A stretch of DNA of 64,000 nt from Candidatus Methanomethylophilaceae archaeon. GTDB taxonomy: Archaea; Thermoplasmatota; Thermoplasmata; Methanomassiliicoccales; Methanomethylophilaceae. Positions 1 through 32,472 of the stretch are shown here, piece after piece. The notes under the pieces are model-generated. The model was not told the origin of the DNA, did not search any database, and worked only from the letters and a program-made list of their open reading frames with translations. Made by a program: the position numbers and the translations under genes. The stretch is from contig JAFXUX010000009.1 in the NCBI GenBank assembly GCA_017524805.1, forward strand, positions 1-64,000, read 5' to 3'. The first letter of the stretch is position 1, and each line of letters starts with the position of its first letter.

Positions 1-440
1 AGTTCTTTCCGATAGCGCTGTGTCTCATGTTGCGCACCTGGGCCGAAACCCGAGGCCGGTGCCCGAAGCCGGGCGTTACGACGGTTGCGCCCATGTATCG
101 AATGGAGGGCGAAACCCCGATACGCCCCGGCGAGATGGAGGACTGGGTGAGGCCGCGCGCACATGGCACAGTTCGTTCTTTCTCCGATCTATCAAATTTT
201 ATGATTGGGCATTTTTATCGCTTCATAGGTCAGGTGCGGATTGCTTTCATCGCTTTAAAAATAGAATATAATGGATTTATATTGCATTTGTAACGGATTT
301 TATTTACAATTGTCAAACAAATGTAATGAATTGTATTATACAACCAACACAGGTTAGTTCTTGATGAAACATCGGCCCCTGTCGGCCCTGACGCGATCCT
401 TATCTTCGGCTTCGGAGGATTTCAAAGGAACGTGTTGAAA
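1..440. other. no gene called at left edge
   Basis: I cannot support a gene here. Two overlapping plus-strand frames are open from the window edge to about 271 and 293, so one could be the 3' end of a gene that starts outside, but neither translation resembles a family I know. From about 190 to 360 the DNA becomes AT-rich and non-coding in appearance, with the 8-base palindrome ACAATTGT near 305. This probably serves as a promoter region for the gene at 441. Confidence 0.4.
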
Positions 441-821
441 ATGGACAATATGGAATTGGACTGTGAGATCATATTTGATCGTGGTCTCGACATCATCGAT
501 ATCGAAAGCCTGGACGAGGCGCCCGTCTACATCCCCAAGGGGATGGGACAGTGCCCCCTCTCGCCCGTATGCCGCCGCTTCGGGGATTTCAGCGACTGCA
601 GGAGCGCCGAACCGGCCCTTCTCCAGCTGTCGCTCTTCTTCGAGTACTCGAGGAGGACCGAGCGCGGCACGTAGTACGTCTTCTCACCTTATTACCATCC
701 GGACCTCTTCGTCGTCTTCACGGGCGACGGGGTGTCCGTGGAATGGTTCGACGGCAGGTCGAAGGCGATGGAGTCTCCCGAGGAGCTCATAGACATCCTC
801 TCGAGGAGACAAAACGCTTGA
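441..821 (+). CDS. unknown protein with in-frame amber codon (possible pyrrolysine)
   Basis: I do not recognise this protein. An ATG at 441 (a GTG at 432 is also possible) opens a frame that reaches TAG at 672-674 and then continues without a frame change to TGA at 819-821. The part after the TAG reads like ordinary protein: YVFSPYYHPDLFVV, then VSVEWFDG, and an acidic helix before the end. Read through, the product is about 126 residues with the amber codon at residue 78. The N-terminal part has CPLSPVC and a further Cys, a possible metal site. TAG is almost never a stop in this window, so decoding as pyrrolysine is plausible. Other readings are a point-mutated pseudogene or a 77-residue truncated product. 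It sits near an integrase, so it may belong to a mobile element. Confidence 0.5.
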
Positions 822-900: not shown

Positions 901-1212
901 TCAGTCGTCTGCGGAATCGGGCTTCGTCTTTCTGCGGTCGAGTACGACCTTGGCCTTCTTGAAATAGGTTACGAGCTCCTCCGCGTCCCTCGTGAGGACC
1001 ATCCTCTCGCCCCTGAAGTTCTCCGATCTGACGTAGTCGATGTAGCCCGCCGCCGAGAGCTCGGTCAGCCTCTGGAACTTCGTGCGCACGTTCCCCGGCT
1101 CCAGGTGCGTTATCTCCACCTTGGTGGAATAGGGATGCTCGGAAAGCGCCACGAGGACGTAGATGGCGAACTTCCTCTCTAGGAGATCGAAGTCGTTGCT
1201 CTTCAGTGTCAT
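901..1212 (-). CDS. winged-helix transcriptional regulator
   Basis: A 103-residue protein with the layout of a small archaeal winged-helix DNA-binding domain. Helices fill residues 8-60, including a likely recognition region around TKFQRLTELSAAGYID. A beta wing follows near residues 60-75 (VRSENFRGERMVLT), and the C-terminal helix is basic. Such proteins usually bind DNA as dimers and repress nearby promoters; the target is not known here. The gene points away from the integrase, and the shared intergenic region carries repeated TGCTGAAT elements that could be its operator. That link is inference. It may be a regulator of the neighbouring integrated element rather than of the host. Confidence 0.75.
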   Translation of the reverse strand: MTLKSNDFDLLERKFAIYVLVALSEHPYSTKVEITHLEPGNVRTKFQRLTELSAAGYIDYVRSENFRGERMVLTRDAEELVTYFKKAKVVLDRRKTKPDSADD

Positions 1213-1511: not shown

Positions 1512-2495
1512 ATGGGAAAGTATCCATTCGGAGAGTACGCGTCCCGCTACATGGACTCCGTCCGCGGCGTATACGCCGAGGAGACATGGAAGACCAGGGA
1601 GCGCAGGTACAGGAGGATGGAACGCAAGGTAATCGATCTAAAAGAGAAGAAGCTCATTTCGACTATGTCGCCTAAGGCGATGACGGAGGAGGACGTGCGC
1701 CAGTACATCCTCTACTGCAAGGAGAAGCAGGCTCCGTCGGACATGGTGCACGAGGTGAACGCGCTCCGCAACCTGCTGCTGTTCGCCGACAACCATGCCG
1801 TGGACGTCTGCATGAACCACAACCCCGGCCTCAGGCCGAGGAACAAGCCGCAGAGGAAGTCCGCCATGAGCGACGAAATTTACAATTCGATATTGCAGAA
1901 AGCGCAAAGCCTCGATCCCTTGGATTTCCGCCGCACGAGGGCTTATGCCCTCGTTCTGATCTGCATCAACGCGGGGACGAGGAACAAGGAGGTACGCCTT
2001 TCTGAGTTGGATGATTTAGACACCGACTCGTGGGTATTGCACATTCTGCACGTCAAGGGGGAGGCCTCCTACGGCATGCCGAGGGACGTCCCCATACCCC
2101 CGGAGATACGCGGGGTATTGCTGAACTATCTATTGCTCCGCAAGAAGTGGGTGGTGGACAACAACTGTGACTCGCGCGCGCTTTTCCCGTCGAAGGATGC
2201 AGAAAGTGGATTCTGCTCGGGGAACAGCCTGAGGAAGTACAAGGCGATCGTCGAGGACGACCTCGGGATCCGCTTCGACCTCCGCATGTGCCGCAGGACG
2301 TTCGGGCAGAGGTACCTCGACAGGGACCTCGACATCGAGTCCGTGAGCGTCCTCATGGGCCACTCGAGCACCAAGACCACCGAGAGCTTCTACAGCCGCA
2401 GGAGGCTCGACGACGCAATGCGCAAGGCCCGCGGCTCCTGGCCGGACAACAAGGCCGGGAAGGACGGGGATCCCGCCGGGAAGAAGGATTGCTGA
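1512..2495 (+). CDS. tyrosine recombinase / integrase
   Basis: A 327-residue site-specific recombinase of the phage-integrase type. The N-terminal part (about 1-110) is the helical core-binding domain. The catalytic domain carries Arg157 (AGTRNKEV), a lysine after the beta hairpin (HVKGEA), Arg261, His284 (LMGHSS) and nucleophile Tyr294 (ESFYSRR). The usual His of the H-x-x-R box is Arg258, a noticeable deviation. I start at ATG 1512 because a strong purine-rich site, GAGGTAAGGAG, lies just before it; the frame is open further upstream but that stretch looks non-coding. The gene ends about 70 bases from the 3' end of tRNA-Ala, the classic position of an integrase at its attachment site. It probably catalyses integration or excision of an element extending leftward. 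Confidence 0.88.
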   Translation: MGKYPFGEYASRYMDSVRGVYAEETWKTRERRYRRMERKVIDLKEKKLISTMSPKAMTEEDVRQYILYCKEKQAPSDMVHEVNALRNLLLFADNHAVDVCMNHNPGLRPRNKPQRKSAMSDEIYNSILQKAQSLDPLDFRRTRAYALVLICINAGTRNKEVRLSELDDLDTDSWVLHILHVKGEASYGMPRDVPIPPEIRGVLLNYLLLRKKWVVDNNCDSRALFPSKDAESGFCSGNSLRKYKAIVEDDLGIRFDLRMCRRTFGQRYLDRDLDIESVSVLMGHSSTKTTESFYSRRRLDDAMRKARGSWPDNKAGKDGDPAGKKDC

Positions 2496-2566
2496 ATTAT
2501 GCATAAGGGGGGTGCGGACAATGGATTTCGACAAGGTTTTCAGATGTCTGGCTAGGGTGAAGGGAG

Positions 2567-2640
2567 TGGACAAGGCGAGATTCGAACTCGCGACTTCTGC
2601 CTTGCGAAGGCAGCGATCTACCGGGCTGATCTACTTGCCC
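2567..2640 (-). tRNA. tRNA-Ala (anticodon CGC)
   Basis: The reverse complement folds as a complete cloverleaf. The acceptor GGGCAAG pairs with CTTGTCC, including the G3:U70 pair that is the alanine identity element. The anticodon stem is CTGCC/GGCAG with loop TTCGCAA, giving anticodon CGC. The T arm contains the usual GTTCGAATC. CCA is not encoded. A TATA-like TTTATATC on the minus strand lies upstream near 2674-2684. The 3' end faces the integrase gene, so the tRNA may be its attachment site. Confidence 0.93.
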
Positions 2641-31614: not shown

Positions 31615-32472
31615 ATGGGAGAAACCTACGCTGAGAATTCGACATATACGAGGAAAATCGGGTTCCCTGGAAGAGAACTTCCTGGTTTCAGATTGCCGAG
31701 GCGTGAAGGGGCCGCCGATCGCAGCGGTTTCGGGGAAAGCGATAGGGACTGCGGAAACCAAGAACCCAGGAAAATGCTTCCTCCAGCGAAGAAAGCCATA
31801 AGTGCATCATCGCATATGACTTATGGAAGCGAAATGGAGTTGCCGCCAGAAAAAATGGAGGCCAGGAAGAAGGCTGCATCCATAATTCTCAACAGAATCA
31901 GCGGCAGCTATGAATTCGCTTTCAAAACATTCTCAGATGAAGAATGCGAGAATTCGTCCGAAGCCCAGTTTTTCCTCGGAATAATGTATCTTTATGGATA
32001 CGGCACCGAAAAGAACGATTCGAAAGCCTTCGAGCACATGGAAAAATCCTATGAATTGGGCAACCCCAACTCCGCCTATTATCTCGGCCTCATGTATCTG
32101 AACGGCATAGGGACTTTCAAAGTCGCGTTCAAAGCCATGGCCTTGTTCAAGGAAGCGGCCCATAACAACGAGAATGACCATCGCGCTCAGCTCCAGATAG
32201 GGCTCATGTACTTGGAGGGCGTGGGAACGGTCGAAAACCCGGAGAACGCATTCAAATGGATCAAAAGGGCGGCCGAACATACGGACGCCGAAGCCCAATT
32301 CATTCTCGGCCAGCTATACAGAGTTGGGTACGGATGCAAGAAAGATCCCGGATCCATGAAGAACTGGCTAGAATTGGCGGCGGCAAGGGGCCACCTGGGA
32401 GCGAACACCCTTCTCGGCAATATCTACACGAATGGCGATGGGGTCCGCGCCAACAAGGAAAGGGGCCAATAG
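31615..32472 (+). CDS. Sel1-repeat protein ending at an amber codon inside a repeat
   Basis: A 285-residue protein to the TAG at 32470. Residues 1-75 are basic and not repeat-like; Sel1 repeats run from about residue 105 (AQFFLGIMYLYGYGTEKNDSKAFEHMEKS) to the end. The last repeat, LLGNIYTNGDGVRANKERGQ, stops at TAG, yet the same frame continues CYDIGDGKRPLP to TGA at 32506, and CY falls where the Sel1 consensus has its W-Y pair. This is the only complete gene here whose apparent stop is TAG, so readthrough or pyrrolysine is possible. Start 31615 is supported by CTTAAATAC 26 bases upstream; ATG 31819 is an alternative. Confidence 0.7.
   Translation: MGETYAENSTYTRKIGFPGRELPGFRLPRREGAADRSGFGESDRDCGNQEPRKMLPPAKKAISASSHMTYGSEMELPPEKMEARKKAASIILNRISGSYEFAFKTFSDEECENSSEAQFFLGIMYLYGYGTEKNDSKAFEHMEKSYELGNPNSAYYLGLMYLNGIGTFKVAFKAMALFKEAAHNNENDHRAQLQIGLMYLEGVGTVENPENAFKWIKRAAEHTDAEAQFILGQLYRVGYGCKKDPGSMKNWLELAAARGHLGANTLLGNIYTNGDGVRANKERGQ

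Follow-up and report, generated by a model that had tools for sequence, protein, structure and literature searches.

An in-frame amber codon, predicted to be read as pyrrolysine, in a small orphan gene near a tRNA-associated integrase of a Methanomethylophilaceae archaeon

In the methylamine methyltransferases MtmB, MtbB and MttB, an in-frame TAG is read as pyrrolysine, and this residue is conserved and catalytic. Archaea that read all of their TAG codons as pyrrolysine were reportedly described in 2025. In 'Ca. Methanomethylophilus alvus', TAG-interrupted genes other than those for methyltransferases, 16 in number, were described by Borrel et al. 2014 (PMC4153887), who gave the share of TAG among the stops as 1.6% and reasoned that a newly arisen in-frame amber codon would be stable in this organism; according to the same paper, the downstream RNA signals called pyrrolysine insertion elements (PYLIS) are not obligatory, and its Table 7 contains unnamed hypothetical proteins.

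The gene studied here lies in the first 64 kb of contig C9 (the window, i.e. the whole stretch of DNA analysed) of a genome of 1.95 Mb in 47 contigs. It shares an in-frame TAG with mtmB, mtbB and mttB, which are present in the same genome, whereas its TAG is not conserved and its product falls outside those families. General use of TAG as a sense codon, as in the archaea said to read every TAG as pyrrolysine, would fully explain the gene, but two plausible TAG stops were left in our sample. As in the 'Ca. M. alvus' set, as far as this is described by Borrel et al. 2014 (PMC4153887), a coding sequence is interrupted by TAG, the downstream in-frame part belongs to the same protein and TAG-free homologues exist; the two genomes are also alike in having few TAG stops, a full pyl cassette and a Sel1 protein among the TAG genes. 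Unlike that set as described there, the present gene has no named family and adjoins a tRNA-associated recombinase.

Examination of the frame opened by ATG441, a plausible start (a GTG at 432 is also in frame), revealed 77 codons, TAG at 672-674 as residue 78, 48 further codons up to position 818 and TGA at 819-821, all on the forward strand and with no frame shift (Table 1). With 142 long ORFs from the same genome as the training set of a codon-usage model, the parts before (77 codons) and after the TAG (48 codons) scored 15.9 and 14.1, respectively, both coding, compared with -29 and -48 for the shifted forward frames before the TAG and -34 and -29 after it; one of the six reverse-frame scores was +3.0 and the others were negative. 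Apart from TAG78, the gene contained no stop, nor any indel relative to its homologue in the related genome G027.

Table 1. Features of the gene and its surroundings (positions in the window)
Feature	Position	Strand	Basis
Gene of a small orphan protein, 126 residues upon reading through TAG	441..821	+	Translation, codon scores, homologues in G027 and G114
In-frame amber codon, predicted pyrrolysine; Glu (GAG) in G027, Leu in G114	672..674	+	Homologue alignment
Downstream 48 codons, in-frame conservation; four strands and a C-terminal helix in a low-confidence model	675..818	+	Codon score, simulation, structure model
ORF of 103 aa without a family match; resembles a winged helix, by eye only	901..1212	-	Neighbour kept in G027 and G114
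Tyrosine recombinase / integrase	1512..2495	+	PF00589, phrog_1
tRNA-Ala (CGC), 71 bases from integrase, presumed integration target	2566..2640	-	tRNA scan

Homologues were rare: the gene was present in 3 of 102 genomes of the family and, with a three-row profile, in the same 3 among 147 genomes of the order. Three additional weak profile matches among the 147 (E 0.002 to 0.005) lacked the motif and the context and were rejected, as was G025, the best of the weak single-protein matches (6 of 60 relatives), which sits inside a larger, unrelated-looking ORF. Viral contigs and phage records yielded no relative, and a search of genome contigs returned a single match, GenBank:JAFYAH010000011.1, with no closer strain. 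This record belongs to G027, a Methanomethylophilaceae MAG of the same genus from sheep rumen, in which the homologue (L002 1495-1872, minus strand) was uninterrupted, had the same neighbours and was 53% identical over 126 gap-free columns. Its codon at the site of the TAG was GAG, one base away. The third homologue (G114, L021 1297-1758, plus strand), from another genus, was 30% identical, with Leu at the site. TAG78 is known from one assembly only. A conserved TAG or residue at 78, to which the earlier note had looked for a decision between pyrrolysine use and decay, did not emerge from the alignment. That note had also named two signs that would speak against its proposal, namely homologues ending at residue 78 and several disabling changes in the second half; none of the homologues found stops at this position, and no such changes were seen relative to G027, which is another species.

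The part following the TAG was the better conserved, with 34 of 48 residues identical between the two proteins (71%), compared with 33 of 77 before it; Nei-Gojobori estimates were dN 0.19 and dS 0.83 after the TAG, and dN 0.45 and dS 1.24 before it. In the downstream half, 35 base differences changed 14 of 48 amino acids, whereas 22.2 changes were expected upon random placement, and 14 or fewer were reached in a fraction of 0.0004 of 5000 simulations; since this comparison sums both lineages, mostly over a history possibly older than the TAG, it does not date the TAG and would be compatible with a very recent nonsense change. The differences were distributed over the three codon positions as 11, 7 and 17, numbers too small for an argument. 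The coding scores, the gap-free homologue and the deficit of amino-acid changes relative to random placement indicate that the open frame after the TAG is beyond chance, and the earlier note's reading of both sides as coding in one unshifted frame down to the TGA was thereby borne out.

It was also noticed that the G114 homologue has an in-frame TAG of its own further downstream, past which about 10 residues resemble the other two proteins. This was rejected as a second read-through case and not counted as support; the TAG is probably a real stop, because no PylS exceeded the cut-off in G114 and 6 of 8 sampled TAG ends of this genome had extensions with negative scores. PylS above the cut-off was likewise missing from its genus mate, G034.

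No Pfam, NCBIfam or PHROGs family was found for the target protein (Pfam with the whole read-through protein, E up to 5), and matches to the methylamine methyltransferase families PF05369, PF09505 and PF06253 were absent, in line with the earlier statement that it is not such an enzyme. Cys38, Cys44 and Cys53 were conserved among the homologues, which suggests metal binding. Structure prediction from the three-sequence alignment was poor (mean pLDDT 49.9), and in the model, tentatively, a four-stranded sheet begins at residue 78. As a guess, this may be a small protein with an accessory or regulatory role in the element.

The genome has a complete cassette for pyrrolysine, with pylT, pylS, pylB, pylC and pylD consecutive on contig C25; pylT was identified by ARAGORN as a tRNA-Pyl with anticodon CTA, and the proteins exceeded the NCBIfam cut-offs for PylS_Cterm, PylB, PylC and PylD. 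In-frame TAG codons were present in two mtmB genes and in mtbB and mttB (one gene each). Of the 1.95 Mb, 445,987 bases were sampled; under the standard code, they contained 429 ORFs, which ended in TGA (362), TAA (49) or TAG (18). Reading past the stop gave a coding-like extension, defined as a codon score above 5, for 11 of the 18 TAG ends and 39 of the 411 TAA/TGA ends (Fisher P 3e-7), and the long runs, which are most of the TAA/TGA extensions listed, were taken to enter neighbouring genes. Without the four methyltransferases, 7 of 14 TAG ends extended (P 2e-4), and with the present gene also removed, 6 of 13 (P 0.001). Pfam matches crossed the TAG in a riboflavin synthase, an HAD hydrolase, a CbiA-type P-loop protein, a DUF7064 protein, a citrate synthase and an IS66-like protein, the last by DUF6444 and among the seven TAG ends with no coding-like extension. 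These results suggest that, in this genome, most TAGs are sense codons, as judged from the 446 kb sampled.

Two TAGs were plausible true stops, those of a DUF2284 protein (C8) and of a Sel1 protein (window 31615-32472, TAG 32470), where the next TGA followed after 4 and 12 codons, respectively; termination at TAG may therefore still occur. A true end at TAG was judged unlikely, from sliding scores and translations, for a cobQ-like gene, the tail of a ferredoxin-like ORF and a doubtful ORF on C5. The reading frame of mcrC (L033 11806-12734, G000:C38) continued in another frame, a break in the assembly that points to indel errors or to damage, and the cobQ-like gene probably has such a break too. 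Genes with incidental in-frame TAG in the sample (contigs C4, C6, C8, C9, C10 and others) further included those for the CbiA-type P-loop protein, the HAD hydrolase, a Sel1 protein, a MarR-type regulator, the DUF7064 protein, the citrate synthase, an AIPR abortive-infection protein and the IS66-like protein.

The riboflavin synthase gene, located on the same contig as the target (G000:C9:86619-87089; L139; L023 2619-3089), carries TAG at codon 50, and a match of its product to 2b98, an enzyme of known structure, covered residues 2-154. The gene was found in 29 of 31 genomes of the genus, and two of these, the target's genome (G000) and that of a sister species, G026 (L140), had the TAG; in the 25 loci in which the site was read, Lys was encoded in the other 23. 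After the TAG, the two interrupted genes differed in 37 codons, 30 of them synonymously. A TAG shared by two species in a conserved enzyme, and followed by a stretch under purifying selection, would hardly be expected if it were not read, and this comparison suggests that riboflavin synthesis in both organisms needs pyrrolysine decoding. Since no riboflavin synthase gene was found besides the one with the shared TAG, the ordinary metabolism of this lineage would now depend on pyrrolysine decoding.

Around the gene, the arrangement suggests a mobile element (Table 1). A tRNA was located within 200 bases of the recombinase in 11 of 12 loci of related recombinases scanned; a match to the small ORF at 901-1212 was present in 9 of 20 loci with recombinases (E up to 1e-3), and one to the target gene in only two of the 20, those of G027 and G114. 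Because the recombinases adjoin tRNAs and the gene is patchy, it is probably cargo or an accessory of a tRNA-Ala-associated, tRNA-targeting element. An attachment repeat was sought in 10 kb of G027 and in the window, and none was found. Near the homologous element, G027 also encodes a reverse transcriptase with group II intron maturase and HNH parts (L090 10344-12173, G027:C72).

Probably, the gene is undamaged, and its product is a protein of 126 residues with pyrrolysine at residue 78, as a recent, incidental and tolerated replacement of Glu. One base change would have turned GAG into TAG; the cell would make tRNA-Pyl(CUA), PylS would charge it, and the ribosome would usually insert pyrrolysine at TAG78 and go on to the TGA. 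The change would have been tolerated because the codon is usually decoded, and pyrrolysine would be a mere substitution with no catalytic role in a cargo or helper protein of the element, which has the integrase and a small putative regulator. Pyrrolysine is the likeliest residue, as the full pyl system is encoded and TAG appears usually to be sense in this genome. By contrast, a recent nonsense mutation, with translation ending at residue 77 and decay begun but further damage not yet visible, is unlikely. It requires the single base that separates TAG from the GAG of G027 and would agree with the lack of conservation of the TAG, the neighbouring recombinase and the patchy occurrence in the order, but the genome appears to decode most in-frame TAGs, so that a TAG by itself would not be disabling, and the 48 downstream codons are free of another lesion. 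Still less likely is a base-calling or assembly error masking GAG or another sense codon. Occurrence in a single assembly and the breaks in mcrC and probably the cobQ-like gene, which show assembly errors or damage, are in its favour; these breaks are, however, insertions or deletions and not substitutions, and TAG in other genes is corroborated, as in the riboflavin synthase of two genomes.

In organisms that use pyrrolysine, a UAG can be subject to competition between release and suppression. Two products, one of 77 residues by termination and one of 126 by decoding, might thus be made in a ratio set by the pyrrolysine supply and act as a switch of the element, for which the adjoining recombinase and putative regulator would be suitable company; but the TAG is absent from both homologues, truncation would drop the only part modelled with moderate confidence, and there is no evidence for a stable first half, so that such a switch is very improbable. 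Hardly probable at all is the further idea that TAG78 ties this small protein to the host's pyrrolysine supply, with scarce methylamines leading to the short form and plentiful ones to the full form; if true, a mobile element would sense host metabolism.

With pyrrolysine as the predicted residue, that part of the earlier note's proposal of a new type of pyrrolysine protein stands, whereas the new type does not: the TAG is not conserved, with Glu and Leu in the homologues, and several other genes of the genome carry incidental TAGs. The protein probably fits the incidental pyrrolysine proteins described by Borrel et al. 2014 (PMC4153887), a known phenomenon and an ordinary one for this genome. 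To the predicted pyrrolysine proteins of gut methanogens, a set compared here by description, it would add that of one more orphan gene, which a mobile element probably carries. Standard gene calling splits or truncates TAG-interrupted genes of this kind.

Two minor observations were made. Window positions 1-175 were nearly identical to a segment of G027 (L002, minus strand), and the protein of the next gene was only about half identical. Weaker matches to positions 37-154 were located in G071, as two copies separated by 0.9 kb, and in G029, where the match by eye resembles a cobalamin-synthesis methyltransferase. As RNA, the 175 bases were not clearly structured (z -1.2 and -1.9) and matched no Rfam family; they are possibly a relic gene fragment. 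In G007, an open frame of more than 3000 codons (C1, about 1006783-1020000; L128 6783-20000) contained an internal TAG with both sides coding by codon score, and may encode a giant surface protein.
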